IMG/VR virus record: IMGVR_UViG_3300044846_004907
Coordinates: 1-39,232 of that record
DNA: 39,232 nucleotides
Source of the DNA: a virus
Strand: one strand, 5' to 3'
Shown here piece by piece: positions 1,141 through 35,321 of the stretch. A program made the position numbers and the translations under genes. The first letter of the stretch is position 1. Each line of letters begins with the position of its first letter. The notes beneath the pieces were generated by a model. The model ran no database searches and had not been told where the DNA came from. It saw only the letters and a program-made list of their open reading frames with translations.

Positions 1141-4100
1141 CCATCGTACATCACTAATTTACCATTAGCTTCAACACATACCGCCTTTCCTGGTGTGTCT
1201 AAGTTAGCAACATACACATCACCACAAGAACACATGTTGTTCACATACATTGTAAGTGGTGAACTAGTTGTTAATTCACAACCAAATGCGTATGAATTTT
1301 CAGCGTTTATCGTATTAGCAACTCCGAATGTTGCGGAATAATTTGAACATACTGTATTACCATAACCACCCAATATTGATGAGTATGACGCCGAATCAAT
1401 AAATTGACCAGGACCATTTAATATTGTTGAGTAATAAAGTGATGATGTAATACTATTATTAACAATCCCACTTCCAGCACCATTCAATATTTGGTTAAAG
1501 TAATTTTTAAATATTGGTGTCTGTTGTTCGTTACTACAGATAAATAATTTTTCACCATTTAAAATGGTTGAAAAATCAGAACAACTAACATTAGAAACAT
1601 TACTATTAATTATATTTCCAAAATTTGACTTACATATTGAGTTTGCGAATCCGTTACCAACTGATGAATATGTTGACCCAGTAATTGTATTACGTTGACC
1701 ATTAACAATAGAAGCGTTGCTTGTATCTTGTGTAATGTTACAATAACCTGCGGATATCGTTGCGTAATTACCATTGGCAAAGTTTTTAAATCCACCTAAT
1801 ACACTACTGTAAGGTCCTGATATAAAGTTACAATATCCGCCACCTATTACTGAATAAGGAGATTTTAGTAGAATTGAATGATTGCACCCACCACCAATAA
1901 ATGTATAGTCAGAATATGTAACATTTTTAAATCCACCAACAATACTACTATATCCACCTTGAGCAACGTTACCTACACCACCAACAACCGCACTGAAATC
2001 ACAATATGCAATATTATTTACACCACCTAAAGATGCCGAATAACTACCTAAAGCACTGTTACCAACACCTGTTCTAACAGTTGATAATAATCCAGTTCCA
2101 AGTACTTCAACTCCACCGCCAGCACCTCCACCGTCAATTGTGATACTAACATCATTGTTTTTACCTATAGTTGTTGTAACACCAGCTCCTAAGAAATTTA
2201 AAAGAGACGGTTGTGTTGTTAATGTAATACCTTCATCTTGAATTGTAATGTTAGGACTAATTCCTGAAGTACCATTAACACCTGATGTACCATTCGCTCC
2301 GTTAACACCTGATGTACCATTCGCTCCGTTAACACCTGATGTACCATTATTACCATTAACACCTGATGTACCATTATTACCATTAACACCAGATGTTCCG
2401 TTAGCACCTGCAGCTCCGTTCACACCAGATGTTCCGTTATTACCATTAACACCTGATGTACCATTCGCTCCGTTAACACCTGATGTACCATTATTACCAT
2501 TAACACCAGATGTTCCGTTAGCGCCGTTCACACCAGATGTACCATTATTACCATTAACACCTGATGTACCATTATTTCCATTAACACCTGATGTTCCATT
2601 AACCCCTGATGTTCCTGAACCTCCACCACCTCCGGTACTTCCTGTAAACACCACATAAACAGCATTTAGTTGGTTAAATGCGTAATATCCGGTACCTGAA
2701 AAAGTTAATGATGTCGGATTTTCACTCAATGATGTTAGTCCATTATAAATTGGGAATATCGCACCTGTTCCGCTAGAACCCGATGTTCCATTAACCCCTG
2801 ACGTTCCATTAGCACCACTAGTACCTGAAGTACCAGATGTTCCTGATGCACCATTTGTACCAGATGTTCCTGAAGCACCGTTAGTACCGGATGTTCCTGA
2901 AATACCATTTGTTCCTGAAATACCATTTGTTCCTGAAATACCATTTGTTCCTGAAATACCACTAGTACCTGAAATACCACTAGTTCCATCAATACCGCTA
3001 GTACCACTAGTACCTGCGAAACCAGAACCTCCGCCAACTGAATTAATTTCAACAACAACATTATCGCCTATTGTAGTCGCAGTAACACCATTACCAACAA
3101 AGGCCAATGATGTTGGATTTTGCGTTAATGGTACGTATGGTTCATTTAAACTTGAACCAGATAATATTGGGAATGACGAACCTGAGCCTGATGTTCCTGA
3201 AGAACCATCACCGCCAGCGGCTCCATCCAAATTAGTATACCAAGAATTGTAAGTACCTGTACCGTCAATTTGAGTGACAACAAGTATAAGGTCACCAGTC
3301 ACACTATCATAACTTGATGTTACACCATGTATTGCAGTTCCAAACGAATTAGACACTAAAATATTTTGGTTAGTAGTATATTCTAAACCAATCATTTGAG
3401 GTCCACCTAAGTTAATACTACTACCAACAGATAAAGTATCTAAATCAAATACATAATCAGTAAATCCTAAATATTGAGGTGTTCTACCGCTTGAACCTGA
3501 TGTTCCACTGGAACCTGATGTGCCATTTTCGCCTGATGTTCCTGATGTACCACTATTACCTGACGTACCGCTAGTACCATTTTCACCACTAGTACCATTT
3601 TCACCACTAGTGCCAGAAGTACCTGATGTACCATTAGTACCTGATGTACCATTAGTACCTGATGTACCATTAGTTCCGGAAGTACCTGTAGTGCCAGATG
3701 TACCATTAGTTCCGGAAGTACCTGATGTTCCATTAGCACCTGAAGTACCATTAGTGCCAGATGTACCATTAGTACCTGATGTACCTGTAGTACCAGATGT
3801 TCCATTTGTTCCTGATGTACCTGACGTACCAGATGTTCCATTTGTTCCTGATGTACCTGACGTACCATTTTCACCTGAAGTACCATTAGTACCTGATGTA
3901 CCTGTAGTACCAGAAGTACCAGAAGTACCTGTAGTACCAGATGTACCACTTGTCCCGCTTTTACCCGATGAACCACTTGTACCGTTTTCGCCAGATGTAC
4001 CGCTAGTACCTTGTAAACCTGAAGTTCCTGAAGAACCATCTCCACCTGCTGCTCCATCTAAATTAGTAACCCAAGTGTTGTATGTTCCTGAACCATCAAT

Positions 4101-16248: not shown

Positions 16249-19193
16249 TAATTACAATTCATATTTATTTGAGTTATTACTTTAAAGTCACCAACCTCCC
16301 CGTTTAAATAATTATCAGAATAAGACGTAATGTAGATTAAATTTAAGTCATCATTAAATTCAACAACAATACCCACCGCACTAAATTGTTGTGTCAGATA
16401 ATTAATACCTTGCGCAATTAAATCATTCCATTCTGTAATTGTTGGTATTATTTGCGGGTTATAGAATTTGTCCCCAATGTATTCAAAATTAGTAACATTT
16501 GTACCGTCACTAAATGTGAAACTAAAACCATAAGTAATATCAAGAACATTAAATGTTGTACAAGACTGAGCACTTGATATTTGATTAACAGCGGTCGTTA
16601 CAATACTTTGTAGTTGTGGAATTTGTGGTGTTGATATTTCATAATTATGCGTAACACATTCTGTTGATTGTAAAGTTCCGTAAGCAATTGGATTTGGGAT
16701 TCTTCTTGTTGCAGTTTGACAACCCCTTTGTCTCCTATATATAAATTTTTGTCTATGGAAAATTGAATTTTCAAATTTAATACCTGTAGTCCATAAAGTT
16801 GTTGCAGGGACAAATTGGTCAATTAATTTTATCCAAAAATCCCCAATACCATTAATATATGAAATCATGTTTTGATAATTAAAATTATCGTTCTGTATTT
16901 GAACATCCTGATAAGATGTTAGATATTTCCAATATATTGATTGTAGGGTTGGGTAACCGCTTGTTTTACCATCAGAAGAAGACATTCTGTTTCTAACATT
17001 TATCATGTTTCTCCAAAAAGTTCTTGAAAATTCATAGAATGTGTCAATTTGAGGTTTGGGGTCAATGAATGTTGAATCAACTCCGCCAGGTTGTGGATAT
17101 GGGGTTGATAGTCCAGTGTATGGTATAGGATAATTTTGAGTTCTTGACAAATACCAAACATCATAAACTAAAGCCTGCGCTGGATTTAAACATATTTCGG
17201 TATTTTTAACATTAAGTGTTAATCGGTCTTCTTCCCTAATATAATAAGAATTATATATCCCGTCACGACTTATTCGGCTTCTATCCGCAGATGACCAACT
17301 TTTTTTATTATCATTTTGTATTTTTAAATTAAATCCAAGATTCATAAAAGGAAACTTCCTGAATCTTTCCAAATATTTTTGTCCGTATGTAAATGGTTCT
17401 AACGATGTTTGTGCACTAAATGTATTTCCAATAAACACACTATTAGTAGTATCTAAAACTTCCAAACTTCTATGTTGTGGCGTTGACTCATACCATCCTT
17501 CACCTTGTTGGAAAAAGTATTCGTTAGTATTTGTAGGAGCTTTTGGGTATCCTTCACTGTCAAATGGGTAATCTTCAATAGTCGCGCTTACGTCAATAGT
17601 AGATGTACTTGCAGTATAACCAGTATACTTGTTCCCGTAGAAGTTATATACCTTAGTATCATCATAGGATGGTATACTTTCAGATAATGTCCCACCTTCA
17701 ATTTGAGCAAATAATTCATCAAATCTACCAAGGTCAATATTTGAATCCGCCAAATAAACATTTTCATTAAATTCTAAAAGAGCGTTTGGGACACCTATAA
17801 AATTCATTAAGAACTCTATTGATTTTCTTGTTCCTTTAGATTTAAAAAGGTATGCGGAATTTAATATTAGATTACGATAGTATTGATAATTTAAATCGTT
17901 AATTGTTTGACTAGTTGAATATGCCGGAAAAGCATTTTTTGTGGTACCGTAAAGTGAATCTAAATAATTTTTATTAGTAATTGGAGATATATTAGTCCCC
18001 CATCCTAAAGTTTTTGCAAGATTTGGTAATAATTGTGAAGGTATGTCATCCCCAATGTTATAATTAACAGATACCACAGTTTGGATTCCATCAATATATT
18101 TTTTAGTTTCATCAAAACTTCTTCCGTAAATTTTTAAAACTTTGTCAACTTTTTGGTCAGATGTGTCAAATTCAGGAAATGCCTGAGTGATATAAAATCT
18201 TGCAATTAAATTTGTTTGATTTTGGTCAAAATTAAATGCAATTTCCTGTAGTTTTTCAATATAGTTCAGATATCCATTACTTGATATATCAATGTTCCAT
18301 ATTCCATTTAAAGGCCAAGTTATTGTTTGAAAACTTGTAAATACTGTCCCGTCATCCCCAATAATTGGGACTTGAAACTTTGCGGTATATTTTGGAGTTA
18401 CTTGTCTGTTTAATAAAATTTCTTGTACTTCATCTAATTCAAGATTATAAACTTCATTTATAATTGTATCATTTAACCTAATAATGAAACTTTCATAAAT
18501 TGTTGTCTGTCCCGAAAAAGGATTACCTTTAATATACAATGTAAAATTACCACTATTAAGATTTGCAGTTGGAATAAAATTAACGACGTTATAGGTTGAC
18601 CCACTTATTTCTAAAATATAACTTAAAAACTTTTCAGTAAAATTTCTATAAACTGAAACATCATAGTCATAGTTTTCAATATTAGATGTGGAATTAGTTG
18701 TAAAATCAATTTGAAATGGATTATTTATTAAATCAATTTCAAAATTAATCTTAGTTACATCTTCATCTGAAAAATAAGTAATCCCACTTGCAGTATATCC
18801 TGTTGTAAAATCAGTTCTATATTTACTAATTTCTAATGCCGCTGGAAAGTAATTTATTATCCCTTGAACCGCGTCAGACAATCTTTTAGATAACGGACCA
18901 TAACTTGTAAAATTTAAAACATTAGTTTGGTCAAAATTTGGTTTTATTCTAAAATTTTTACTGAATATATCCAAACTTTTTTGAACCGATTCAGTACCTA
19001 AAGTAGTCAATGATATTGGGTCTGAAAATATTCCTGTGTCAAATTCTCTGTTAGTTTTTGACGCAATACCTGTAGTAAACGTAAAATTACCTTGCGTAAG
19101 TCCTCCGCCTTGGACTAATTGTAATCCAACTAAATTATCTGAAAATGTACCGGCTCCAGATGGTTTTTGTGGTGGACACTTATACGTTGCCAT
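16248..19193 (-). CDS. Baseplate / tail protein with gpI-like core
   Basis: 981 residues; ATG at 19193 overlaps the preceding stop by one base (TAATG), and its own stop overlaps the next ATG the same way. Residues ~340-470 carry a pattern I associate with the P2 gpI / tail protein I group that is related to the T4 gp7 wedge: LLPNLAKTLGWG near 391, then YYRNLILNSAYLFKSKGTRK and SIEFLMNFIGVP near 454. N-terminal parts (MATYKCPPQKPSGAG; SVQKSLDIFSKNFRIKP) are not recognised. A Trp/Tyr-rich region covers 600-830. Residues ~870-981 end INMNCN and look like the end of the next protein. Known role of the family: linking wedge or tube proteins to fibres. The assignment to gpI/gp7 is a weak-homology judgement; another baseplate role is possible. 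Confidence 0.7.
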   Translation of the reverse strand: MATYKCPPQKPSGAGTFSDNLVGLQLVQGGGLTQGNFTFTTGIASKTNREFDTGIFSDPISLTTLGTESVQKSLDIFSKNFRIKPNFDQTNVLNFTSYGPLSKRLSDAVQGIINYFPAALEISKYRTDFTTGYTASGITYFSDEDVTKINFEIDLINNPFQIDFTTNSTSNIENYDYDVSVYRNFTEKFLSYILEISGSTYNVVNFIPTANLNSGNFTLYIKGNPFSGQTTIYESFIIRLNDTIINEVYNLELDEVQEILLNRQVTPKYTAKFQVPIIGDDGTVFTSFQTITWPLNGIWNIDISSNGYLNYIEKLQEIAFNFDQNQTNLIARFYITQAFPEFDTSDQKVDKVLKIYGRSFDETKKYIDGIQTVVSVNYNIGDDIPSQLLPNLAKTLGWGTNISPITNKNYLDSLYGTTKNAFPAYSTSQTINDLNYQYYRNLILNSAYLFKSKGTRKSIEFLMNFIGVPNALLEFNENVYLADSNIDLGRFDELFAQIEGGTLSESIPSYDDTKVYNFYGNKYTGYTASTSTIDVSATIEDYPFDSEGYPKAPTNTNEYFFQQGEGWYESTPQHRSLEVLDTTNSVFIGNTFSAQTSLEPFTYGQKYLERFRKFPFMNLGFNLKIQNDNKKSWSSADRSRISRDGIYNSYYIREEDRLTLNVKNTEICLNPAQALVYDVWYLSRTQNYPIPYTGLSTPYPQPGGVDSTFIDPKPQIDTFYEFSRTFWRNMINVRNRMSSSDGKTSGYPTLQSIYWKYLTSYQDVQIQNDNFNYQNMISYINGIGDFWIKLIDQFVPATTLWTTGIKFENSIFHRQKFIYRRQRGCQTATRRIPNPIAYGTLQSTECVTHNYEISTPQIPQLQSIVTTAVNQISSAQSCTTFNVLDITYGFSFTFSDGTNVTNFEYIGDKFYNPQIIPTITEWNDLIAQGINYLTQQFSAVGIVVEFNDDLNLIYITSYSDNYLNGEVGDFKVITQINMNCN

Positions 19194-21240: not shown

Positions 21241-22014
21241 TTATTCAGGGTTTATATATTCATACCAATACAATTTACTAAGTTTAGTTGTCTGTCCAAC
21301 CTTATTTAGACTATATTTGTAAGTATTATAATTAATATTAACTTCATAATAATAGATATCATTAGGTATCTTTGTCTTAACTGAAAAGTTTGATTGTGGA
21401 GTATTTGTAAACTGAATAAAATTTCCAGTTTTAGCCTCAAAATATTTTGCAGTCATATAGAATTTATTGATATTAACAACACTAGTATTTTTATACCAAT
21501 AAATAAAATACCCTTGTTTATCACCATAAAAATCTAAAATGTACTTTGGGATTTTTAAATCAAAAGTTTTATCGTATGCGGAATCATAATAAGGGGTTTC
21601 TTGGTATTCGCTCTGTAATATTATTGTCAAATAATTTTTTTGACTAGTTGGGTCTAATGTGTCATATAAATCAATTTTAAAAAAACTATTTTTAAAAGAA
21701 TTATACTCATTATAAATTTCTAAAAAGGTAAATTTATTTGATTCAATAAAACTATTAACCCATGTGTTACCTGACTTAAAAAAATTAAAATTATATTCAA
21801 CTGATGAATCAAAAGTACCATTAATATTCATAGTCTCTTTAGAATATCTTTCAACTTCATAATCTGTAGGGCTTCCAATGATTTCTGTAATAATGTCGGT
21901 AGCGAGTACATTTACACTATCTTCACGGTTCAAATAATCCCATTTAATATCTAATGGAATTAAAATATTTTTATCTGATAGTTTTTCAGTTATTTTTATT
22001 TTATTCACAATCAT
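21241..22014 (-). CDS. Unrecognised structural-region protein, 257 aa
   Basis: ATG at 22014 (MIVNKIKITEKLSDKNILIP) lies inside the end of the upstream gene, a 14-bp overlap. The protein is rich in Tyr, Asn, Lys and Phe, soluble in appearance, with no signal peptide, membrane segment or catalytic motif I can name. Alternating hydrophobic residues (FNFFKSGNTWVNSFIES; YYYEVNINYNTYKYSLNKVG) suggest beta structure. It is tightly packed between the 639- and 362-residue genes, so it probably belongs to the same tail assembly set. No function proposed. Confidence 0.75.
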   Translation of the reverse strand: MIVNKIKITEKLSDKNILIPLDIKWDYLNREDSVNVLATDIITEIIGSPTDYEVERYSKETMNINGTFDSSVEYNFNFFKSGNTWVNSFIESNKFTFLEIYNEYNSFKNSFFKIDLYDTLDPTSQKNYLTIILQSEYQETPYYDSAYDKTFDLKIPKYILDFYGDKQGYFIYWYKNTSVVNINKFYMTAKYFEAKTGNFIQFTNTPQSNFSVKTKIPNDIYYYEVNINYNTYKYSLNKVGQTTKLSKLYWYEYINPE

Positions 22015-23920
22015 CAGTCAGTGGTTGATTTGGATTATTTGAAATTAAATTAACATTTGAACCTTCAGGTATAATTCTAAAAGTAAAATTAGAAAATGGG
22101 TAGTGAGCGCCATTTAAAAATGGGTAATCAACACCATTACCTTCAGTATCCAAAAACCCATAATCATATATGTCCCTCCATATATATTGACTAGTAGATT
22201 TTCTAAAATATGCGTAATCAGGTAAATCACCAACAGGTAAATTATATGTGTTATTACCGCCACTTTCTTCAATGTAATCTGAAAAAACTTTTATTTTAAA
22301 ACTATAATGTGGTTGGTAATAAAACCCAAGTTGGTTGTTAACATCCCCGCCTATGTTAAAATTTTCAGGATTGTATTTAAATTTATGATAATAATTTGAT
22401 ACGACCCTTTCAGTTTGTTCAATATTATTCCATTCACAAAAATCCCCGTAAATAATCCCACCTTGATATAAATCAGAATTATAGTAGAATTTTTTGGTTT
22501 CATTTGAACTGGCCACAAATACATTAGTATTTAAAAACGATTGTACCTGTTGAGTTATGGGTCTTCCGTCAACTGAAATCGCAACAACATTATTTGTTAC
22601 AGGGGTACTGGTTTGGGTTGTATAACCTTCTATTGTATAATTCTTAGAATAAAAATTAACAGGTATATTAGAATTAGACAATGACTGGTTTTCTTTCCAC
22701 CAATCATTCAATTGTGGTCCTAAATTAAATTCCCACCCATGTTTTAATGCGGTAGTATTTGTACTATATGGTTTATTAAACCATCCCATATAACCTTTAT
22801 TTATTATTGTTAAAAATAATTCACTAATAGGCCTATTTAAATTATCGGTTAGTCCGTTGATGTCCAAATCTTCAGAACACGATATATTATAAGATTGACT
22901 ATCTTCCTTTACCGAAACTCTAGAAACTTGGTTGGGAGTTAATTGTTTTGATTCAAATTTTTTAACAATCCTAAACCCATTTTTTTCAAATCCCGCATTT
23001 GTAACAACTGCTTTGTTTGAATTTGTTAATATTTTGTGAACCCTAACATAGTATCTTGATAAACCATCTTCTTGTGATGTGTTAGGTATAAATTTCTTAA
23101 ATGTTCCGTAGGTATTTAATCCTAAAGCGGGACAAGAATACCCAACATTATATACATTAAAAATGTAATCTTCCGAACCACTAGTTCCGTTACCTAAAGA
23201 ATAAACTGTAAAATATGATAAACCATTACAAGTACCGTTAATTTTAATTGAGTCCCCCGCTAAAAGTCCGTGTGGCATTTCACATTTAAATTGTAACATA
23301 GGTTTACCATTTATTTTATTACTACTTAAAAAGTATGGTATCCCGTCACTACATTTCCAATTAAAATTAGTCCCACTAACTGTTGTAATTTGCATCATTA
23401 CTTCAGTTGTACTACTAAATGGATAGGTATAATAAAAATTCCAATTATAATTAGATATTTTAGATTTTTCTAAATTAATATGTTCATTTGGTGGTGCAGT
23501 ATATCCACTTACACCAAAATCAGTTCTTAAAAATGAAAATTCGTTATATTGAGGTATTCCCGGCCAAGGTATCACGTCAAAAAAAGATGTTTGTGACAAT
23601 TTTGAATTTAACGCATCTGTATAAAATAAATTATTATTAAAAGGTGGGTACGGTTTATTAGGGTTGTTAGTTGAGCCAACAGTAACCCCACTGTAAGCAT
23701 TATCAAATAAAAGCGATACTTTGCATATTGGTCTAAATTTTGTTGATTTTTGTCTTTCATTGTCAAAAGTTTCCGCAAGACTAACCACAGAACTCCTATC
23801 AAATTCGTCAACTTCTTTAACTGTTGAACTTAAAGGAATTTCAACATTAATACCAACATCATTTGCCCCCTTATATCTGGCACTACCTTTTAGGAATATT
23901 ATATTTTTGTCGTTATTCAA
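22001..23920 (-). CDS. Unrecognised baseplate/tail-region protein, 639 aa
   Basis: The frame opens at TTG 23920, immediately after an in-frame stop (23921-23923), with no nearby ATG. The 8-bp overlap with the upstream gene (TTGAATAA) fits coupled translation. The protein starts MNNDKNIIFLKGSARYKGAN. Notable segments are KFRPICKVSLLFDNAYSGVT near residue 70, a Tyr/Pro/Asn-rich middle and WRDIYDYGFLDTEGNGVDYP near the end. No membrane segment or enzyme motif seen. Likely beta-rich structural protein by composition and context. The start codon is the least certain part: TTG is the only reasonable candidate that keeps the N-terminus. Confidence 0.75.
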   Translation of the reverse strand: MNNDKNIIFLKGSARYKGANDVGINVEIPLSSTVKEVDEFDRSSVVSLAETFDNERQKSTKFRPICKVSLLFDNAYSGVTVGSTNNPNKPYPPFNNNLFYTDALNSKLSQTSFFDVIPWPGIPQYNEFSFLRTDFGVSGYTAPPNEHINLEKSKISNYNWNFYYTYPFSSTTEVMMQITTVSGTNFNWKCSDGIPYFLSSNKINGKPMLQFKCEMPHGLLAGDSIKINGTCNGLSYFTVYSLGNGTSGSEDYIFNVYNVGYSCPALGLNTYGTFKKFIPNTSQEDGLSRYYVRVHKILTNSNKAVVTNAGFEKNGFRIVKKFESKQLTPNQVSRVSVKEDSQSYNISCSEDLDINGLTDNLNRPISELFLTIINKGYMGWFNKPYSTNTTALKHGWEFNLGPQLNDWWKENQSLSNSNIPVNFYSKNYTIEGYTTQTSTPVTNNVVAISVDGRPITQQVQSFLNTNVFVASSNETKKFYYNSDLYQGGIIYGDFCEWNNIEQTERVVSNYYHKFKYNPENFNIGGDVNNQLGFYYQPHYSFKIKVFSDYIEESGGNNTYNLPVGDLPDYAYFRKSTSQYIWRDIYDYGFLDTEGNGVDYPFLNGAHYPFSNFTFRIIPEGSNVNLISNNPNQPLTDDCE

Positions 23921-26900
23921 TTATTAAATCAGCATTAACATATTTTTTTATGAACTTGTCCATCGCAGAATATCCCTTATTCAATCCAAAATAAAAATAA
24001 TAAGGTGCTCCAAATACAAACATACCAGAATATGAATCAGGTATATTAGCAATAGGTTCACCGTTTGTATCATAATTATCTTGAACACCTAAATAAAAGT
24101 TAGTTTTAGTTACATTTGTTCCAGGTCTAAAGTATCTTGATTGTGGACTAAATCTATCTAATTTTTGATATCTATAACTGAAAAATTCATCATTGAGCCC
24201 ATCATCAGATAATGTATTAGTGAAAAAATTATTATTTTGATTTCCAAAAATTATATTGTTACCACTTAAATCCAAATCCCACAAATAAAAAGGAACTATC
24301 TGTGTTTTATTACCGGTTATTTCAGCCATATCATAGGATACTTCGGAAACGACACCATTTGATTTGTAGATATTTCGCCTTGGAGATATATAATCTCTAT
24401 CTTGAGTACTTCCTGTAAAGAAGATACCAAACACGGGATTATTATAAGATGGTCCAACATAGACATAGTCACCAACATAGTTATCGGCAGAAAATTCACG
24501 GATACCAAATTGAGAATTAGTGCCTAAAGATTGAGCGTAATCGGCGTCAATTTGTCCAGGAATTATTTGGACATTACCTGTAGCTTTCCATCTTTTATTA
24601 TTAAAAAATGCAGATACTGTAGGCTCACTATTACCTTCTTTTTGAATAGTCGGAACTATCATAGAAAGTAAACTAACATTAACAAGTCTAGACACAACAA
24701 ACATTTGAAATAATTCAAAATTATCTTGTAATGTCGTTGTTGGTATTTTTGATACAACGTACCCATCATAATCATCATTAAAAACTAATTCTTGTGTCCA
24801 TTCAACTTTGGGACCCAAGTCAGCAATTGTTGTTGGGAATAACAATAATTTTTCATTTCCGGTATTTGTCTCAGCACCTTTGTCATTTCGTTTCCCAATA
24901 AATTTTCCAATGTTTAAATTTGGACTAACAGATAAGAATGGACTGCTTCTGTAATAAAAATTATTAGTAGCTTCGTGAAAATAAATCAAATCTTTACAAA
25001 AAGTACTGTAAGGTTGGTTGTTAGAATCAAAAAATCTATTTGATTTAAAAGAAAACGCATAAAGAGTTCCATTAATCCATTGATTTGAGAATGATTGAGC
25101 AAATATTTCAAAACACGCAGACAAACTAATTTTCACTCTAGTAACCCATTCAAGTAAATATTGTATATCTTTAGGTAAACTCTCAAATGCCGATGAAACA
25201 AAATTATAACATCCTTGACCATATCTAAAATATTTTTCATTTCCACTTGGGTCCATAATTAAGTTAGCATCAGGTTTAATTATTGGAGTTCCGTCAGGTT
25301 CGGTAGTATAACAATCAAGTGTTACCGCTTTAGTACAGTCATAGGTAGATTCCAAAACTTCCTGATATGGGACAAATTGGGATAATATATCCGCTTCCGT
25401 AATCGCTTCTTGAGTTATATTTTCTTGTGATTCAGAACCTCCTCCATCGTCAACTAAAAATAAAGCGAAAGTTGAATTCTGATGTAATAAAAGACTATTT
25501 ATTCCCGCATACTGCTCATTAGTTGAACCAGGCATTCTATCTGTTCTAACAACATTTTTAAAACGACTATTAAAATTCCAATTAAAAACAACATTATTTT
25601 CTGTCCAATAAGTCCCATCACCACTAAATACGGCATATGTTGGCGATGTATAGAACATACCGAATATGTCCATACTTCTAACACTATTACCGTTACAGTC
25701 AAATGATTCAGATAGACTGAAATATGGACTATTGTAAACTGACATTCCTTCAACATACTCTGACCCAAGATATCCTAATAGAAATCCATTAACACTTAGT
25801 TCGTCGTTTGGCGTCATTGATATTAGAACAGATGTTGCACCTCCATTGTCAGGTTCAGAATTACACCAAATCCCAGTATGTGGCGAAAACTGAAATGGAT
25901 TGTTATTTCTTTTAATTCTTAAATATCCATTATGTGTTTCCGTTTGACCTACAAAATTACCAAAATTATAAGGAAGTCCAGAATTCCATGTCATCCATCC
26001 CCAAGATAAATCACCACTATCATAAAGTTCTGAATCAACCGCCGAATAATAAGCTGGCATTCTTGATGTAAATCCACTATACGAGCCAGGATTGTAAAAA
26101 AAGGTATAACTATTATAAAATATTGTTTTATTAACAGGACAACTGTTATCCGTATCAGTAGTGTTTAGAACATGGTGATGTCTACATAATTTTAAACCAG
26201 CTTGTATGGGTATATTCATTCTAAAATTACCTCTAATAGTAAAATTATCGTCCCAATTATTTATATCTTTTTTACCAAATATGTTTGACAAAGATATTTT
26301 CATGTCAACTCTTGGTGAATGCATGTCAACGCCTCTCATTAAAATGACAACCACCATGTCTTCAATTCCGTCAACACAATTTGGAAACTTTGCTCTCCCT
26401 GCATCTCTTCTCATATAATCCCTACAACATCCAACATTTTTCGCGCGACTATACTCCCACATTTGGGAAACCGCATCATAACCTATTGTCATATATCTCA
26501 AGTATCTTCTAGCATAAGACCTATATGGGGTTGTTCTAGATGAGTTTGCTATTGGTGAAAAATAACTTTCAGGTTTTTCAGTTGTTTCTGTTTTACGTAC
26601 AAAATCAGATACTGTCATTGCGGTAATAACTTGGAAGTACTCTATGTCGGACTTAAATGATGTTGTTGCCGCAAACTGTCCATCTATTATTTGCGTGACC
26701 CCAGTTAATCCATATGTAACATATGTTGTTGTAAGATTTTCTTCAGGATTACTTGGGTTGGCATATTTAACACTTAATACCGGAAAATTAGTTCTTGTAC
26801 CATAAGACCCACCAAATCCGGTTTCGTCATTTTTACTATTTGGGTCATTTGACAACTGCGGGTCTTGGAATGTAATGATTGACCCCGATGGATATATTTC

Positions 26901-29480
26901 AGAGCCTGGGTCTAATAATAACATCATTACATTATCTTTATGAATTTTTTCATTATATGAATCAGGTAAATTAGAATCCGGAAACCATTTTACCCTGATT
27001 TGGTTAAACTCATCCGACGGACCATCAGGGTTAATTGCCGAAGCTTTAAAGTATTTATCCTTTCCATTAAATAAATTCAAACTTTCCCCCCATGGTAAAC
27101 TATAAGAATAAAGTTCTGTTTCAGAACCATTGTCTTGGTCAACACTTGATGCTGTGGGTGTCCTTTTACGAAAACCTGTGTAATTACTACCAGCAATTAA
27201 TTCATTAAATTGGTCTTCTTTATCGTTTGGATTGTCAGAAGGACCTCCAAGTTCATATCCACCACTAGATAAAGTTTCAGGTTGTGTTGGTCCAGTCAAT
27301 GGGTTAGGATAAGAAGTTCTTGTGTAAGTATCACTATCAGTACAATCAACTAAGACTGAAGATTGTCTATCTTGAGCTGCCGCCAGTAATTGAGGTGAAA
27401 AACTAATTTTATCTTGTGTTGAGCATTTACAAAATTCGCATCCATCTTCAGTAAATAATAACAACGGTATCCCTAAATTTGTTAATGGATTTTTTCTTTT
27501 TGGTGGTACGTATTTTGGTGGACATTCTTTTTCAGATTTACCAGCCTTTCTTCTTAACCAATTAACCGCGTTACAAATACCTCTAACAATTTTTCTTAAA
27601 ACTTTTAAAAAAGCGTCAATTGCCTTTATTACCACCCCATAGATAAACGCCAATACATGCAGAATTGCAATATAAATTATTAATTGGTATTTAAATAAAC
27701 TTATAACAAAATTTATAATAATAAAAAATATATCCAATCTATAATAAGCGTCGTTCACAGGAAACTTATTATGTGTAGCTTCACATTTTTCATCATTAAC
27801 ATACTTTATTTGATTAGTATTCCAAAGTAATCTTGATGTTTGATATCTATCCATAAACTGACTTACAGTATAAACTTTGTTATATTGCATTTCATAAAAT
27901 GTATCTTCACAATCAATAGCTTCGTCAGGATTTGCATAGTCATTCCAATCTAAACTAAACGCATAAGAACCTTCTAATAAAAATCTTTGATACTTAATTA
28001 CTTGGAATTCAAAAATCGCATCAATACTTTCATCTGTTCTTTCAAACTCCAAAAAGAATGTTGTATTAACTCCAGGTTTTTGGATTAAGTACGACCCATA
28101 ATAAGTTTCAGTATTCGCACTTATTTTTAAATTTTCAACATTTGTTCGTTTGTTAAAATAATAAACTTGCCCTTGTGATGAATTTAAATTAATAACTAAA
28201 GTATTTTCATTAACATTATATGTTGTAATGGATTCGTAGAAATCTCCTTTATTTGGGTCAATACTTGGGTTTATCCATCCTCTTTCTTTAATGTTTGGAA
28301 CTAAAAAATATCCCCTTCTGTCTTCTAAGGATAATTGTGGAGATTGTTGCCATTTGATTTTAAATCTACATTTGGATTTTGTAGGTATACCTATTTCAGG
28401 ATTTAAACTTATTTTTCTATCACCATTTTCATCAGTATACACATAATCCATATTCATGGGTATATCGGTAACCCACGTCCCATCGCCATCAATAATATCT
28501 CCACCATTTTCTAATGGAGCAACTTCCAATATTGGTCTTCGGTTATCATCTAAAAAAACAGTTTGTCTAATCGCACTAATTGAACCAGGTCCTGTGACTA
28601 TATCACACATGTTACCCGCCTTAAATTTAACCTTACACTTACCGTCAGGATTTAAAATTGAACTCCTAAACCCAACTTTATTTTTTTCAGTTGTAGATAT
28701 TAATGAACCCATAAACACCGCAGCAGGTGTTATTCTAATTCCTTTTTCCGAAGTAATATCAAAATCGGCTCTACCAATACTATAATTACAAACTTCAGGT
28801 TGTCCAAAAAATGGTGCAACATTCACAATCTTTCTGATTGTTACAATCTGTGGTAGTTCGTCATAGTTTGTTGAAAACTTAAAATTCGTTCCGTCAATTT
28901 GGTCTTCAGTCGCAATACCTAATCTAACTAAATCTTGTGGTGTTAATGAAAACTCACCAATATCAGAAAGGTCAACTTGCATGAATAATTCTTGATTACC
29001 CAATGGTAATCCAATCATCATAAAATCACCTGAACTGTTTGTCTGAACAGTATATCTATAATACTTGTCGTAAACCTCAATAACATTTTTATCAGTTAAA
29101 GCATCTATTCTATCGGGGAATGTTCCAACGGGTACGTGTCCTGAGTGTGATTTAGTGTATGGTAATAAATTATATTTATACCCATCATCATTAATAGTTT
29201 CAATTGTCTTAAATGGATATAACGAAGATATTACTTCATTGTATTCATCAACAGCATCTAAAGGTATAAAAATAGATATTTTAGCATTAGGTAATCCAAA
29301 ACCATTATTAACAAATACTCTACCACAAACAACACCGAAATCGGCACAAGTCCTTGTATAGATTTCTTCGGGTTGGATTGATAATGATAATACTTCTAAA
29401 GTGTCAAATTTTTGTTCTAATTTGACCTGTATATTTGTATCAACATTTAACTGAGTTCTTATTCTGTAATTAGACGGCAT
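23913..29480 (-). CDS. Very large baseplate-region protein with internal membrane-like hairpin
   Basis: 1855 residues, ATG 29480, follows gp6 by 54 bp, the place held by wedge gene 7 in T4. Residues ~40-80 (TRTCADFGVVCGRVFVNNGF, then GLPNAKISIFIPL) resemble a carboxypeptidase-regulatory-like / transthyretin-type beta-sandwich. Residues ~584-620 are strongly hydrophobic in two stretches (FFIIINFVISLF and LIIYIAILHVLAFIYGVVI). Next come a basic amphipathic segment (~621-650: LKVLRKIVRGICNAVNWLRR) and a Cys cluster (GCEFCKCST near 680). A second Cys/Arg region (NVGCCRDYMRRDAGRAKF) lies near residue 1010. The rest is Tyr/Asn/Ser-rich and likely beta. I infer a virion protein that may contact or insert in membrane. 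Homology to gp7 is positional only. No frameshift seen. Confidence 0.8.
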   Translation of the reverse strand: MPSNYRIRTQLNVDTNIQVKLEQKFDTLEVLSLSIQPEEIYTRTCADFGVVCGRVFVNNGFGLPNAKISIFIPLDAVDEYNEVISSLYPFKTIETINDDGYKYNLLPYTKSHSGHVPVGTFPDRIDALTDKNVIEVYDKYYRYTVQTNSSGDFMMIGLPLGNQELFMQVDLSDIGEFSLTPQDLVRLGIATEDQIDGTNFKFSTNYDELPQIVTIRKIVNVAPFFGQPEVCNYSIGRADFDITSEKGIRITPAAVFMGSLISTTEKNKVGFRSSILNPDGKCKVKFKAGNMCDIVTGPGSISAIRQTVFLDDNRRPILEVAPLENGGDIIDGDGTWVTDIPMNMDYVYTDENGDRKISLNPEIGIPTKSKCRFKIKWQQSPQLSLEDRRGYFLVPNIKERGWINPSIDPNKGDFYESITTYNVNENTLVINLNSSQGQVYYFNKRTNVENLKISANTETYYGSYLIQKPGVNTTFFLEFERTDESIDAIFEFQVIKYQRFLLEGSYAFSLDWNDYANPDEAIDCEDTFYEMQYNKVYTVSQFMDRYQTSRLLWNTNQIKYVNDEKCEATHNKFPVNDAYYRLDIFFIIINFVISLFKYQLIIYIAILHVLAFIYGVVIKAIDAFLKVLRKIVRGICNAVNWLRRKAGKSEKECPPKYVPPKRKNPLTNLGIPLLLFTEDGCEFCKCSTQDKISFSPQLLAAAQDRQSSVLVDCTDSDTYTRTSYPNPLTGPTQPETLSSGGYELGGPSDNPNDKEDQFNELIAGSNYTGFRKRTPTASSVDQDNGSETELYSYSLPWGESLNLFNGKDKYFKASAINPDGPSDEFNQIRVKWFPDSNLPDSYNEKIHKDNVMMLLLDPGSEIYPSGSIITFQDPQLSNDPNSKNDETGFGGSYGTRTNFPVLSVKYANPSNPEENLTTTYVTYGLTGVTQIIDGQFAATTSFKSDIEYFQVITAMTVSDFVRKTETTEKPESYFSPIANSSRTTPYRSYARRYLRYMTIGYDAVSQMWEYSRAKNVGCCRDYMRRDAGRAKFPNCVDGIEDMVVVILMRGVDMHSPRVDMKISLSNIFGKKDINNWDDNFTIRGNFRMNIPIQAGLKLCRHHHVLNTTDTDNSCPVNKTIFYNSYTFFYNPGSYSGFTSRMPAYYSAVDSELYDSGDLSWGWMTWNSGLPYNFGNFVGQTETHNGYLRIKRNNNPFQFSPHTGIWCNSEPDNGGATSVLISMTPNDELSVNGFLLGYLGSEYVEGMSVYNSPYFSLSESFDCNGNSVRSMDIFGMFYTSPTYAVFSGDGTYWTENNVVFNWNFNSRFKNVVRTDRMPGSTNEQYAGINSLLLHQNSTFALFLVDDGGGSESQENITQEAITEADILSQFVPYQEVLESTYDCTKAVTLDCYTTEPDGTPIIKPDANLIMDPSGNEKYFRYGQGCYNFVSSAFESLPKDIQYLLEWVTRVKISLSACFEIFAQSFSNQWINGTLYAFSFKSNRFFDSNNQPYSTFCKDLIYFHEATNNFYYRSSPFLSVSPNLNIGKFIGKRNDKGAETNTGNEKLLLFPTTIADLGPKVEWTQELVFNDDYDGYVVSKIPTTTLQDNFELFQMFVVSRLVNVSLLSMIVPTIQKEGNSEPTVSAFFNNKRWKATGNVQIIPGQIDADYAQSLGTNSQFGIREFSADNYVGDYVYVGPSYNNPVFGIFFTGSTQDRDYISPRRNIYKSNGVVSEVSYDMAEITGNKTQIVPFYLWDLDLSGNNIIFGNQNNNFFTNTLSDDGLNDEFFSYRYQKLDRFSPQSRYFRPGTNVTKTNFYLGVQDNYDTNGEPIANIPDSYSGMFVFGAPYYFYFGLNKGYSAMDKFIKKYVNADLIIE

Positions 29481-29534: not shown

Positions 29535-31376
29535 TTAGCTGAAATTAACCGTAGTCAAGTTTTTAATTCTAACAACAATATCTGTTTGTGGGAACCTTAC
29601 TTGTAGTATTTGACTTGGTTCACAATAAATTGTATCTTCAATTAATTTAATTTGTCTAGTTTGAGTATTAGAATATGTTTGACTAACCTGTCCTGACGAA
29701 TAATTTCCACCGACTTTATTGTAAACTAAAATTTCAGTAATTGAAATGACCCCGTTTATTTTTTGAATCTCGGATTTTAATTCAGACATATATAAATCTT
29801 GCCCCATTTCCCTAACACTTGGGGATAAGTAAGTTGATACCGTATTAATGATATTTGAAATTATTGAACCTGAATTTTGAGACGCGTCTAATACCGCATA
29901 TATTTCAAATGACAGGTCAATTACACTTGCCGCTAAAGTATATATGTAATCATTAATCATACGATAGTTACTCAAATAGGTTGCAACATTTTGTAATAAA
30001 ATATTAGATATAGAATTTGTTAAAGCTCCGCTTGTATCGTAAGATAATAAATTAATCTTTATCTTATTATCTTCTTCAGTTATTGCAACTTTGGCAGGTG
30101 CTCCAAATTGTGATGGCATTTTTCTAATTAAAGTTTCATAGTCATTGATGGTTACCGCTCTGTTTTGTGATGAAAAATTAAAACCAACAAGATTTCTTAC
30201 TTCTTCCACAGATGGGAAATTTGCTCCACCAATTGCAGCGGTCACATTATTACAACCTAATGAATTAATAACCGAATTTTTAATTGTTTGTGATGTTCCA
30301 CCATTTATAACAAAGTTAACCGTACCTACTTGATTTATAGTGCCAGGTCCTAAATTAGTTCCTAACCCACCACCAACTCTATACTGAATAAATAATGTTT
30401 TATTTGCAGGTAATATTGACCCCAAAGAATAGTTGTTTTGGTATTTTGATAAGTCCAAAGGTGTTCCATTTCTAGCATATTCACGAAGTAATTCGTCAGT
30501 TGATTGACTTCCACCACCAAAGGTTATTTTAAAGAATCCTTCAGCAGTATATTCGGTAATAAATCTGTCACTAGTTTGAATATACTTACCAACTTTAATC
30601 CCTGTTGAATCTTTTGGTTTAGTTGGGTCTTCAACAAATATCCTATCCTGAGCCAAAGCGTCAACCTCATACCATTTGTTTGCAGTCCCTAAAAATTCTT
30701 CAGGTGTTGGTATGTTAGCATAATTTGTGCCATCTTTCAAAAGAACATTAGTAACACCTAAAACATTTCTTTCAGGTAAAAATAATTCGTAAAAAGGTTT
30801 AGATTCTACATTTGTTATTACTTTTTTAAACACTTTTGTAGTTCCGTTAACAACAGGTTCCCTTTTTACAATTGTATAATTAATTAATTGGTTATTCGCA
30901 TCAAAATTTGGTATTTTTAATCTGTTTGGAAATCCTTCATTATTGTATGGTGATGCAAAATCAATGTCATATAAATTTTCAAAAACTTGACCAGCACCTG
31001 TAATTTGTGAACCCCTTCTTAAAACACCACAATAATCTAAATTTTCAGCATCCCCATCTGCCGGTACTATGATTGAAAAATCAACTAACGCAACTGATGG
31101 TCTTTGTCCCGGAACTCTTAAACCATATGTTCTAGCAATATTATAAACCGATGACTTTTGTTGGGCAAACTGTAATACCGTTTCCTGTAATGTTCTATCA
31201 ATTTGATTATTTAGATTATCCGTAACCGCAGCATTTAAATCTAAAAACACTGAAAAAATAGAAGCGTCGTTTGTATTCTGAATTAAATCAGGATAGTATG
31301 ATTTTACAAAATTTACTAATTCAGTTCTTACTGACTGAAAATCTCTTACAGAATATGATAATTGTTTGTTTGGCAT
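29535..31376 (-). CDS. 6: Baseplate wedge protein gp6-like
   Basis: 613 residues against about 660 for T4 gp6. The N-terminus SYSVRDFQSVRTELVNFVKS and the helix DLNAAVTDNLNNQIDRTLQE fit the gp6 / baseplate J group. A central region with FKITFGGGSQSTDELL and EYARNGTP and a C-terminal part with NDYETLIRKMPSQFGAPAKV and SPSVREMGQDLYMSELKSEI also fit. In T4, gp6 dimers form the core ring of the baseplate wedges around the hub. It starts at ATG 31376, one base after the gp25-like stop, the same 25-6 order as in T4. There is no Shine-Dalgarno sequence; the leader is AT-only for about 15 bases. Confidence 0.9.
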   Translation of the reverse strand: MPNKQLSYSVRDFQSVRTELVNFVKSYYPDLIQNTNDASIFSVFLDLNAAVTDNLNNQIDRTLQETVLQFAQQKSSVYNIARTYGLRVPGQRPSVALVDFSIIVPADGDAENLDYCGVLRRGSQITGAGQVFENLYDIDFASPYNNEGFPNRLKIPNFDANNQLINYTIVKREPVVNGTTKVFKKVITNVESKPFYELFLPERNVLGVTNVLLKDGTNYANIPTPEEFLGTANKWYEVDALAQDRIFVEDPTKPKDSTGIKVGKYIQTSDRFITEYTAEGFFKITFGGGSQSTDELLREYARNGTPLDLSKYQNNYSLGSILPANKTLFIQYRVGGGLGTNLGPGTINQVGTVNFVINGGTSQTIKNSVINSLGCNNVTAAIGGANFPSVEEVRNLVGFNFSSQNRAVTINDYETLIRKMPSQFGAPAKVAITEEDNKIKINLLSYDTSGALTNSISNILLQNVATYLSNYRMINDYIYTLAASVIDLSFEIYAVLDASQNSGSIISNIINTVSTYLSPSVREMGQDLYMSELKSEIQKINGVISITEILVYNKVGGNYSSGQVSQTYSNTQTRQIKLIEDTIYCEPSQILQVRFPQTDIVVRIKNLTTVNFS

Positions 31377-31377
31377 T

Positions 31378-31845
31378 TTATATATTAATTATTACAAAAT
31401 CTTTAGAATTAAATACATCACTTGTTACTGTGTATTCAACCCTAACTTTAGCGGTATATTCCTTAGTTCCTAATCCGGGTATACGATATATTCTACTATC
31501 CAAATTAGGGTCAGTGTTTAAATCGGCAGAATCAGTTTCCCCCAAGTTTTCAAGTGAATCAACAATAATATTAGTTATTTGTAAATTAGGAATATACTTT
31601 TCAACTGAATCTCTAATTTCACTTTCAATATCATTAAATGTTGGTCCGTCTAATGGCTCAAAAATATATTCATACAATCTAGTTCCAAAATCAGGTAAAA
31701 AATATCTTGACCCTTTTCTTGTTAATAGTAGATGTATTAAATTACTTTTTATTTCTTGATTTGGCTCGGTAGACAAATCTAAATAAGTTCCAGTTAAGGA
31801 ATCTTTAAAAGGAAAATTTATACCGTATGTAATACCGTTTGCCAT
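31378..31845 (-). CDS. 25: Baseplate wedge protein gp25-like
   Basis: 155 residues from ATG 31845 (MANGITYGINFPF). A TTG six bases earlier (31851) is also in frame, but the MANG start fits better. The GPW/gp25 signature is clear: LIHLLLTRKGSRYFLPDFGT followed by RLYEYIFEPL, matching the RKGSR..F.PEFG region of T4 gp25. The family has a lysozyme-like-fold history but acts as a structural wedge protein that contacts gp6 and the sheath at the inner baseplate. It is the first gene after the nrdA terminator, so it probably opens the structural transcription unit. Confidence 0.9.
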   Translation of the reverse strand: MANGITYGINFPFKDSLTGTYLDLSTEPNQEIKSNLIHLLLTRKGSRYFLPDFGTRLYEYIFEPLDGPTFNDIESEIRDSVEKYIPNLQITNIIVDSLENLGETDSADLNTDPNLDSRIYRIPGLGTKEYTAKVRVEYTVTSDVFNSKDFVIINI

Positions 31846-31890
31846 ATTCAATAAATATAATGTCGTGTTTTTTTCAGTAAATCATTATGA

Positions 31891-31921: not shown

Positions 31922-34354
31922 TTAAGATGAACATCCAAAACAATCAAAATCACTATTTTCAGGTTTTGGAGGTAAATTCATATAACTATAATCTACCTTT
32001 GGTGGTTCAGGTGTCGGATTTGGTTTGTTGATTTTTGATATGTCAACGGCTAAATGTTTTGCCCCTGTTGAGATTGCCTTTGTTCTAACATAATAGCAAA
32101 GTGTTTTCAATCCCTTTTCCCATCCATAAAAATGTGATGATGAAATCTTTGACAATGTTGGGTTACCCATATAGATGTTCATTGATTGTGATTGGTCAAT
32201 AAATGGTGCTCTGTCGGCCGCCATTTCAATCAATGACTTTTGTGAGATTTCCCAAATTGTTTTATACTTGTTAATCAAGTGTTCAATTCTTTTAACTTTT
32301 GAATTGTATTTCTTATCTTCTTGGTCAAGATAGTTGTTGAAGTTAATGTTTTGAATTGAACCTTCGCACATTATGATTTCATTCTTTAAGTCCTCACACC
32401 AAATTCCAATCTTTTCAAAGTCGTTAATTAAGTACTTGTTAACAATCATAATTTCGCCACCAACTACACGTCTGTTAAAGATTGCCGAGTGAGCTGGTTC
32501 AGTCATTTCGTATGAACCTGTAATCTTCGCCGAAGATGCTACAGGCATTTGAGCCGTGAATAATGAGTTACAAACACCATAATCTTTAACTTCTTCTTTT
32601 AATGAGTTCCAATCCCATCTTCCTGACAAATCACCTTCATTAAGTCCCCACATATCAAATTGGAATATTCCTTCTGACATCGGTGAACCATTAAAGAAAT
32701 CATATGGTTTATATTCTTCTGACTTACATAAACTACAACTTTCAGTAATTGCTGCAAAATAAATTGTTTCAAATATTTCTTTATTCAACTTACGAGCTTC
32801 ATCAGATGTGAAGATATAATCCATCAAATAGAATACATCTGCAAGCCCTTGTGTTCCAATTGCAATTGCTCTTTGTTCCAATCCACCCTTACGACCTTTT
32901 TCAGTTGAGTAGTTGTTGATATTAACAACTTTGTTTAATGCTCTTACAACTTTACGAGTTTCTTCATACAAACCTTTAAAATCAAACTCACCATCTTTCA
33001 CATAGTTCTTCAATACCATAGATGAAAGAGTACAGATAGCTGTTGTTTTCTCATCTGTATATTGGTAAATCTCGTTACAAAGATTTGATTGTTTGATTAC
33101 ACCAATGTTCTGATGATTTGTCTTTTTGTTAGCATTGTCTTTAGAACAAAGATATGGTACACCCGTTTCAATTTGAGATTCAATAATCTTGTTCCAAATT
33201 TCTTGAGCCTTAACTTTCTTACCGAGACCTAACTCAACCGCCTTATTATAGTTAGTTTCATACTCATCACCAAAAGACTCTTGTAATGGTTTGATACCCG
33301 CTTTAACGATATCATTAGGACAGAACAAATACCAATCGTCGTTATTCTTAACAGCATTCATAAAGTTGTCAGGAATCCAAAGTGCGGTGAATAAATCACG
33401 AGCTCTTAATTCCTCAGCACCTGTGTTCTTTTTAATATCCAATAAATCAAAGATATCTTTATGCCAAGGTTCCAAGTAAATTGCCGCAGAACCTGGTCTA
33501 CGTCCTTGTTGGTTAAAGAAACGAAGTGACTCGTTAACAATCTTCAAATACTTCAACAACCCTCCAGCGTATCCACCTGAAGATGTAATACGACTCTCCT
33601 TACTACGAATGTTAGACATTGATAATCCGATACCCGCAGCATCTGATGAATAGGTTGAGATGTCTCTCATAGTATTCAACAAACCTTCACGAGAATCTGA
33701 ATCGTTGTAATGAAGAACACAAGATGCCAATTGTGGAACCTTTGTTCCCGCATTAATCATAATTGGGGTCGCTGGAGATATTCTCTGACTTGACAATGCC
33801 CGATAGTATTCAACCGCTTCTTCAAATGTATTAGTAACCCAAAGAGCAACTCTCATATACATATGTTGAGGTCTTTCAACAACTTTACCACTTGGTAATT
33901 TCAACAAATACATTTCAGAAAGTGACCTCCAAGCAAAATAGTCAAAGTTATAATCATTATCGTGATTAATTACTTCGTCAATATTACTGGGTCCGTATGA
34001 TTCAACAATTTCCATTAATTCGTTACTTACAATACCATCAACATGTAAAGTATGCATAACGTTTGAGAAACTTGGGTCAGTTTCTTTGTGGTATGATGAA
34101 ATCGCAACTGATGATGCCAAACGAGAGTAATCATGGTGACTACCTGTAAAAGCCGCAGCAATTTCATAGATTAACTTATCCAAATCTTTGGTAGTAATAA
34201 CCCCTTCAGTTGGGACTGAAGTGATTACTTTAATAAAGATTTCATCGGAATTAACATTCAACCCTTTTGAGGCTCTTTTAATTCTTTGGTAAATTTTTTG
34301 TGGATTAAAGGACGCATCCTCCCCACCACGTTTTTTAATTCTTAATGACATCAT
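31922..34354 (-). CDS. nrdA: Ribonucleoside-diphosphate reductase large subunit (class Ia)
   Basis: 810 residues, ATG 34354 (a second ATG follows directly). It reduces ribonucleoside diphosphates to deoxy forms with NrdB. An N-terminal ATP-cone-like region (~1-95: KKRGGEDASFNPQKIYQRIK) suggests allosteric activity control. Expected residues are present: C212 (QLASCVLHYNDS) and C441 (TTAICTLSSM) as the active-site pair, N424-x-C426-x-E428 (NLCNEI) for radical chemistry, Y754-Y755 (TLCYYVRT) for radical transfer, and a C-terminal C805-x-x-C808 (DCFGCSS) redox pair. So it looks fully functional, with no intein or split. It lies 19 bp downstream of nrdB and ends at a strong terminator. Order B then A is the reverse of many bacterial operons. 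It supplies dNTPs for phage replication. Confidence 0.97.
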   Translation of the reverse strand: MMSLRIKKRGGEDASFNPQKIYQRIKRASKGLNVNSDEIFIKVITSVPTEGVITTKDLDKLIYEIAAAFTGSHHDYSRLASSVAISSYHKETDPSFSNVMHTLHVDGIVSNELMEIVESYGPSNIDEVINHDNDYNFDYFAWRSLSEMYLLKLPSGKVVERPQHMYMRVALWVTNTFEEAVEYYRALSSQRISPATPIMINAGTKVPQLASCVLHYNDSDSREGLLNTMRDISTYSSDAAGIGLSMSNIRSKESRITSSGGYAGGLLKYLKIVNESLRFFNQQGRRPGSAAIYLEPWHKDIFDLLDIKKNTGAEELRARDLFTALWIPDNFMNAVKNNDDWYLFCPNDIVKAGIKPLQESFGDEYETNYNKAVELGLGKKVKAQEIWNKIIESQIETGVPYLCSKDNANKKTNHQNIGVIKQSNLCNEIYQYTDEKTTAICTLSSMVLKNYVKDGEFDFKGLYEETRKVVRALNKVVNINNYSTEKGRKGGLEQRAIAIGTQGLADVFYLMDYIFTSDEARKLNKEIFETIYFAAITESCSLCKSEEYKPYDFFNGSPMSEGIFQFDMWGLNEGDLSGRWDWNSLKEEVKDYGVCNSLFTAQMPVASSAKITGSYEMTEPAHSAIFNRRVVGGEIMIVNKYLINDFEKIGIWCEDLKNEIIMCEGSIQNINFNNYLDQEDKKYNSKVKRIEHLINKYKTIWEISQKSLIEMAADRAPFIDQSQSMNIYMGNPTLSKISSSHFYGWEKGLKTLCYYVRTKAISTGAKHLAVDISKINKPNPTPEPPKVDYSYMNLPPKPENSDFDCFGCSS

Positions 34355-34373
34355 AGTTTATAAAGATAGTAAA

Positions 34374-35321
34374 TTAAAAGTCATCAGTAAAGGAGAGGGT
34401 CTCATTTAACTTTGCTTTTTGATATTCAACTGTTCTAGATTCAAAGAAATTACCTTTTGTTTCAACGGCAATTTGCTCCATAAATTTAAATGGTTGTTCA
34501 ACATTAAATTGTTTTTTACATCCCATTTTAACAAGTAGGCCATCTACCACAAATTCCAAATATTGTTTCATCAAATTTTGATTCATTCCAATAAGAGATA
34601 CCGGTAATGATTCTGTGATAAATTCTTTTTCAATTTCAAGTGCTGACAATAGAATTTCTTTAATTCTTTTTTCACTTGGTTTATCTTCAACGTGGTTATT
34701 TAATAAGTGAATTGCAAAGTCACAATGCAAGTTTTCATCTTTAAAAATTAAAGAATTGGCATTACACAAACCTTGCATAATACCACGTGACTTTAACCAA
34801 AAGATTGAACAAAATGAGCCTGAGAAGAAAATACCTTCAACCGCCGCAAAGGCCACCAATCTTTCTTGGAAAGACGCATTTTCAATCCAATCCAAAGCCC
34901 ATTTAGCTTTCTTTTGGACTGCTGGTAGATTATCCAATGCTGTGAAACACTTTTGCTTTTCTTCTTCATTTGAAACATAAGTGTCAATCAATAACGAATA
35001 CATCAAACTATGAATGTTCTCCATAGCAAGTTGCATCCCGTAGAAAAATTTAGCTTCAGGGTATTGTACTTCACGGTAGAAATTTTCTGCCAAATTTTCA
35101 TTTACAATACCATCGGAAGCTGCAAAAAATGAAAGAATATTTTTAACAAAATATTGTTCGTTTTCTGATAAATTTTCCCAATCTCTAATATCACCACTCA
35201 AATCAATCTCTTCAGCCGTCCAAAACGCAGCTTGGTGCATTTTATAAAATTCCCATATATCATTATATTGAATTGGGAATATTACAAATCGGTTTGGGTT
35301 TTCTACTAATATTTTTTCCAT
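34374..35321 (-). CDS. nrdB: Ribonucleoside-diphosphate reductase small subunit (class Ia)
   Basis: 315 residues, ATG 35321. The diiron-tyrosyl radical set is complete: D40 (EEIDLSGD), E101-x-x-H104-x-x-x-Y108 ([10 protein letters not shown], where Y108 is the radical tyrosine), E162 (AVEGIFFSG), and E196-x-x-H199 ([10 protein letters not shown]). The C-terminal tail FTDDF is acidic and aromatic like tails that dock to the large subunit. Length is a little short of cellular R2 proteins (about 350-375), mainly at the N-terminus. It sits between the helicase and nrdA in a compact run. Because Y108 is present, this is class Ia-type and not the Tyr-less class Ic. Confidence 0.97.

Follow-up and report, generated by a model that had tools for sequence, protein, structure and literature searches.

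A hydrophobic segment in the baseplate locus of an uncultured virus proved to be real, conserved and unannotated. The DNA analysed, called the window below, is an IMG/VR virus record of 39,232 bases, and the feature (positions 27541-27740, minus strand) translates as RLDIFFIIINFVISLFKYQLIIYIAILHVLAFIYGVVIKAIDAFLKVLRKIVRGICNAVNWLRRKA, residues 581-646 of a 1855-residue open reading frame (23913-29480, minus strand) with hundreds of homologues. We see about an even chance that this protein is a membrane-active element of the virion baseplate which, from the slot of gp7 and in the manner of phi29 gp9, would insert into the host envelope at infection.

Gene slot and family of the 1855-residue protein

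The 1855-residue gene, its parts and the three genes named next all lie on the minus strand. Directly upstream is a gp6-like (Baseplate_J) wedge gene (29535-31376; PHROG 219, E 1e-14; PF04865), preceded by a gp25-like baseplate wedge gene (31378-31851; PHROG 261, E 4e-17), and directly downstream is a gene for 639 residues (22001-23920), which synteny marks as a regular partner. Of the 120 homologous loci long enough on that side to include it, 111 have a gp6 homologue no more than 300 bp upstream of the family gene; for the 639-residue gene, 70 of 77 loci have a homologue at most 300 bp away on the downstream side. Distant relatives, L122 to L126 among them, keep this gene order, with a gap of more than 300 bp within it in some. 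The 1855-residue gene occupies the slot held in T4 by gp7, after the gp25 and gp6 genes. Membership of the gp7 family by sequence was rejected: hmmsearch between T4 gp7 and the 1855-residue protein gave no match, hhalign gave a probability of 0.1, and the Pfam domains Gp7_helical, Gp7_5th and Gp7_6th, all detected in T4 gp7, were not detected in the window protein.

A tail sheath gene (PF04984, E at most 0.001) was present in 6 of 8 and 7 of 8 large records with homologues, 13 of 16 in total, a count made on these large records. Because of these sheath genes, the phages that carry the family are taken to be contractile-tailed; the largest record with a homologue measures 355 kb. The sheath matches behind L106, L051, L046, L011 and L037 are frames of about 1,090-1,310 residues, compared with about 660 residues for T4 gp18.

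A scan with the single protein found homologues on 36 viral contigs, an alignment-based scan confirmed at least 589 contigs and a scan that included distant members at least 563, two sets that may overlap and are not summed. Neither Pfam nor PHROG returned a family match for the 1855-residue protein. Searching 50,697 GenBank phage records (a set from which records very close to the window were possibly omitted) with the window protein and four homologues gave no protein match, and a PDB sequence search with the window protein family gave none at E below 0.5. The closest entry of the structure library BFVD came from Myoviridae sp. ctPuP5, a protein itself uncharacterised, with 38% identity across 406 columns. 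The most conserved part is the N-terminal beta-rich domain, residues 1-409 (28254-29480), which shares 52-56% identity with many relatives and had no confident fold match in the PDB; the best 50 Foldseek PDB matches of residues 1-700 were for the most part generic beta folds of pilin, Ig-like and dioxygenase type, their query TM-scores being about 0.1, and no gp7 chain was among them. The C-terminal part is conserved as well: its NQWINGTLY motif (residues 1466-1474; 25059-25085) is shared by 58 of 81 long homologues and recurs in distant members. Seven homologues came from the genome collection, four of them on contigs titled Bacteroidales, Paludibacteraceae or Bacteroidota (L122, L125, L126 and L127) and the other three on contigs titled Wolfebacteria, Prochlorococcus and Mycoplasmatota; the host is likely a member of the Bacteroidota. 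The proteins thus described make up a widespread, unannotated structural family that can serve as a marker for tracing this phage lineage in metagenomes.

The rest of the window gives further context. Positions 31922-35321 hold the genes for the two subunits of a class I ribonucleotide reductase, with the baseplate genes on one side and helicase, exonuclease and UvsX-like genes on the other, and the large subunit found its best named-phage matches in Tenacibaculum and Cellulophaga phages. The best matches of gp6 were from a huge phage, a Microcystis phage and Flavobacterium phage immuto. An open-ended reading frame of at least 3345 residues (3-10037) has many collagen-like and tail-fibre PHROG matches. 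A 981-residue frame (16248-19193) matches a protein of 1265-1404 residues downstream of gp6 in immuto, Mel-JY01 and LR756508, which indicates that immuto, Microcystis phage Mel-JY01 and LR756508 share a baseplate core with the window; a homologue of the 1855-residue protein was undetected in the stretch read of these outgroup phages with related gp6.

Conservation and predicted structure of the hydrophobic segment

Residues 584-618 are the most hydrophobic stretch of the window. The best 19-residue hydropathy, 2.69 at residues 600-618, is the top value among the 17 larger open reading frames of the window, and residues 578-596 reach 1.71 over the same span. Among 569 background frames of at least 300 residues in the fetched loci, 1.8% reached 1.9 and 0.2% reached 2.2, and none of the 94 frames of at least 700 residues reached 1.9; for the 123 homologues the corresponding figures were 94% at 1.9 and 88% at 2.2. 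Since the homologues exceed the background frames in this way, the hydropathy of 584-618 is far above chance.

Every homologue from the first two scans whose sequence spans the region has a hydrophobic stretch after an FPxND-type motif, and in most of them this stretch precedes YPDCxxCxC. In the distant scan, the best 19-residue value of proteins of at least 600 residues was at least 1.6 in 75 of 75 and at least 1.9 in 68 of 75, the maximum being taken over the whole protein and falling in most cases shortly after the FPxND-type motif. Substitution patterns point to the nature of the constraint: of 2,133 differences from the window at residues 584-596 and 600-617, 2.3% were to Asp, Glu, Lys or Arg, compared with 13-14% expected from single-base codon changes and 23% observed over residues 1-409, and 63 of 92 sequences have no charge at all in these 31 positions. 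Residues drift, hydrophobicity stays and charge is excluded. The region differs in length among relatives: in some it reaches about 140 residues and contains as many as four uncharged runs of at least 14, in others there is a single uncharged run of 50 to 76 residues, and runs of 30-76 occur in many. The L028-L034 group has a weaker segment with four charges in each member. The hydrophobic helix is absent from two compact homologues on MAG contigs, one of 766 residues (L121:2870-5107) that keeps an FPxN motif at the site where the helix would start, and a very divergent one of 732 residues (L127:9956-12139).

Structure prediction placed this segment in a helix. The AlphaFold model used here covers residues 1-700 and was built with 92 sequences (mean pLDDT 81.3, pTM 0.71); an earlier model of residues 1-1180 from 31 sequences was poor (pLDDT 46), with its C-terminal part badly modelled, and is also helical at the segment, which lends weak support. 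In the model used, residues 1-409 have pLDDT values mostly of 75-95 and beta domains extend up to about residue 540, with low confidence at 541-561 and 574-582. These two stretches fall within a putative linker, residues 541-582 (27735-27860), which holds C566 and the conserved FPxND motif. The helical module predicted after it, residues 584-646 (27543-27731), consists of a helix at 584-595, a break of one residue and a helix at 597-646; ten-residue pLDDT means are 77-91 from residue 591 on and 60 for residues 581-590. According to this model, the helix lies outside the beta domains and not in their core.

Sequence periodicity gave a second view of the hydrophobic helix part, residues 584-617 (27630-27731), which D583 immediately precedes and which is supported by hydropathy, charge exclusion and a 100-degree periodicity. 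Column-averaged hydropathy over 584-617 followed a period of 100 degrees in 55 non-redundant sequences (p 0.0002), and a distant clade, represented by 35 non-redundant members, showed the same period along about 40 residues (p 0.0002); both p values come from column permutation on the chosen segment and carry no correction for that choice. The polar stripe lies at positions 590, 594, 597 and 608, which in the clade of the window are S/N/Q590, N/T594, T/K597 and His608; this last residue, in the middle of the hydrophobic stretch (27657-27659), is His in 80 of 92 sequences. An HxxxW-like pattern seen at His608 in some relatives was discarded, as the Trp is not constant. In the distant clade (L166-L195) the hydrophobic stretch spans about 45 residues with Asn at roughly every seventh or eighth position on one helical face, and 34 of 35 members have Asn at one position of the stripe. 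With its narrow stripe on an otherwise largely hydrophobic surface, the helix reverses the pattern of a soluble amphipathic helix.

Four cysteines bracket the helix. C566 (27783-27785) lies on its near side and C681xxC684xC686 (27423-27440) on its far side, where the model has strands at 673-677 and 680-684, a pair predicted at low confidence. All four are present in 83 of 92 sequences and probably form a metal-binding clasp.

These results bear on the original prediction, which had read the region as two membrane-spanning stretches forming a hairpin, followed by a basic amphipathic helix and a cysteine cluster, and had taken it for a possible membrane-inserting or genome-delivery element. A membrane-type segment in a protein of the baseplate locus was borne out by the hydropathy of 2.69 and its retention in nearly all relatives, losses being confined to the compact, divergent L121 and L127, and the cysteine cluster proved to be both real and conserved. 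That the two stretches are separate membrane spans is uncertain, as the first has only about 13 residues and no loop lies between them. The hairpin was not supported, since a single helical phase over 584-617 argues for one long, perhaps kinked, helix and not a tight hairpin, and AlphaFold likewise predicts a long helix broken at one residue. The amphipathic basic extension (residues 619-647; 27540-27626) is real in the window but specific to its subgroup and not conserved in the family. The functional reading accordingly keeps its conserved membrane-type segment and loses the hairpin and the conservation of the basic helix. The possibility that structure prediction would bury the segment in a soluble domain was not borne out either, the helix being modelled outside the beta-domain core.

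Possible roles of the helix

As we picture it, the 1855-residue protein would be a structural part of the baseplate in the gp7 slot, carried by the virion and probably present in six copies around the tail. Each copy would bear a module made of the long hydrophobic helix with its narrow polar stripe, the four-cysteine clasp at its base and a flexible linker to the beta body, and as long as the virion is free the helix would lie folded against surfaces of partners. Opening of the baseplate on the host could then let the helices swing out and insert into a membrane of the envelope, the outer membrane being the one met first, and the inserted helices might associate through their polar stripes, either to dock the baseplate or to form a helix barrel around the path of the tube. 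We favour membrane insertion because of the combination of hydropathy, conservation, charge exclusion, polar stripe, structural model, gene slot and sheath genes. Which membrane is used bears on the plausibility of this scheme. Alpha-helical insertion into an outer membrane is rare. The T4 protein of the wedge slot stays outside the outer membrane, so that action on the inner membrane would require an unusual route.

The mechanism also gains from what was found in the tape measure proteins. The only helical tape-measure candidates of two large relatives, putative assignments picked by position, size and composition, have hydropathy maxima of 0.85 and 1.01 and no hydrophobic segment, whereas T4 gp29, the tape measure of T4, has one that reaches 2.2. 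One of the candidates without a hydrophobic segment is a helical protein of 633 residues (L134:4789-6687; G005 44789-46687). The gp29 segment has been proposed to act in channel formation at the membrane (PMC11948020, citing Hu et al. 2015). A stronger form of the idea is doubtful in our judgement: across a very large uncultured lineage of contractile-tailed phages, the baseplate ring would itself be the membrane-breaching device, its six gp7-slot proteins driving long hydrophobic helices with polar stripes into the envelope, where these would build a barrel encircling the route of the tube and take over what the tape measure does at the membrane. Against the insertion mechanism in general stand the two homologues without the segment (L121 and L127), the charges in the L028-L034 group, and gp7 itself, which shows a predicted membrane segment in a soluble wedge protein.

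This last point leads to the reading that the helix is structural and packs on itself or on partners inside the baseplate, for example at the centre of a bundle, without ever meeting lipid. Wedge proteins do form helical core bundles (PMC10457771), T4 gp7 is a soluble wedge protein despite the membrane segment noted in RefSeq, and the L028-L034 group tolerates charges. However, the T4 segment is conserved by residue, whereas here residues drift and hydrophobicity stays; uncharged runs of 30-76 residues, up to four per protein, are more than a soluble bundle requires; and a mostly hydrophobic surface with a narrow polar stripe, on a module that the AlphaFold model puts outside the beta core, fits such packing poorly. 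On balance we regard a buried helix as unlikely.

Somewhat improbable too, in our view, is that the helix serves assembly, tying nascent baseplates to the inner face of the cytoplasmic membrane of the producing cell in the way of Cis13 and being freed at lysis with no part in entry. Translation would insert such a hydrophobic segment into the membrane of the producing cell unless it were shielded, which favours this anchoring role. The number of uncharged runs varies among relatives, as that of an anchor could, and the membrane helix of Cis13 is a direct precedent in a relative of phage tails (PMC8894136). However, a free virion has to leave the membrane and no release device was seen; by a rough count the uncharged runs are odd in number in some relatives and even in others, so that in some of them the two large soluble flanks would end up on opposite sides of the membrane; and a polar stripe with a near-invariant His or Asn exceeds what an anchor needs. 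It is very improbable that the product is a non-structural membrane protein, such as an assembly factor or a host-takeover protein, whose gene stands in the baseplate cluster by chance: the Pfam, PHROG and PDB searches gave no homology to a known structural protein, as this reading would have it, but even very distant relatives preserve the gp6/1855-residue/639-residue order, and in its size and beta-rich build the protein resembles a structural one.

Comparison with known tail systems

How contractile phages cross membranes after the sheath has fired is an open question, and earlier work focused on the tube and the tape measure. A membrane-type helix in hundreds of uncultured phage contigs, and in none of the isolates searched, makes the baseplate ring a possible further site of membrane contact, and the conserved helix offers a defined fragment on which this can be tested.

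The protein of T4 that holds the same slot provides one comparison. It had been predicted that a membrane-like feature would not be expected in T4 wedge proteins, and the T4 record contradicts this: RefSeq annotates gp7 (gene 7, L144:7061-10159, NC_000866) with the words 'C-terminus is predicted integral membrane domain'. The segment lies at residues 886-904, between Gp7_5th and Gp7_6th, with a hydropathy of 2.07, and it is kept nearly residue by residue (RFVHPVGFGFI...) in five other gp7 proteins that are 33-62% identical to that of T4. Both proteins are large, follow gp6 directly and have one hydrophobic segment, but they differ in the position, length and mode of conservation of that segment. 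Because it is residue-conserved and less hydrophobic, the gp7 segment is a feature of another kind.

Transmembrane segments occur in the tape measure proteins of TP901-1, diffocin, phiCD508 and T4 (gp29), for which a role at the host membrane has been proposed (PMC5099701, PMC10996793, PMC11948020). These proteins share with the 1855-residue protein the presence of hydrophobic helices in a tail protein; unlike it, they occupy the interior of the tail tube and consist mostly of helix, whereas the protein studied here is rich in beta structure and its gene belongs to the wedge block. That it is itself a tape measure was rejected, given that residues 1-540 are modelled as beta-rich and the gene lies beside gp25 and gp6; a separate helical tape-measure candidate sits elsewhere in the large records. 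Cis13, whose membrane helix is required to anchor the contractile injection system of Anabaena to the thylakoid (PMC8894136), is likewise associated with the baseplate of a contractile machine, but it is tail-fibre-like with a C-terminal helix, and its machine remains in the producing cell with no exit of a virion.

The closest parallel for the mechanism we favour is the tail knob protein gp9 of phi29, present in six copies, whose hydrophobic, pore-forming L loops exit the knob at genome release and rearrange into a helix barrel that is hydrophobic on the outside and surrounds a channel of 32 angstroms (PMC6542822). No homology to gp9 was detected, either as a PDB sequence match below E 0.5 or among the best 50 Foldseek matches. 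The likeness consists in a hydrophobic insertion, which in the 1855-residue protein would be located at the tail tip as judged from gene position. Phi29 is short-tailed and gp9 forms its tube, whereas here the protein takes the gp7 slot of contractile-tailed phages, and the exit of the gp9 loops is a described event to which a corresponding step may exist in the 1855-residue protein. Taken with these systems, the element belongs to a kind already known, the membrane-active parts of phage tails, at a site where none was expected.
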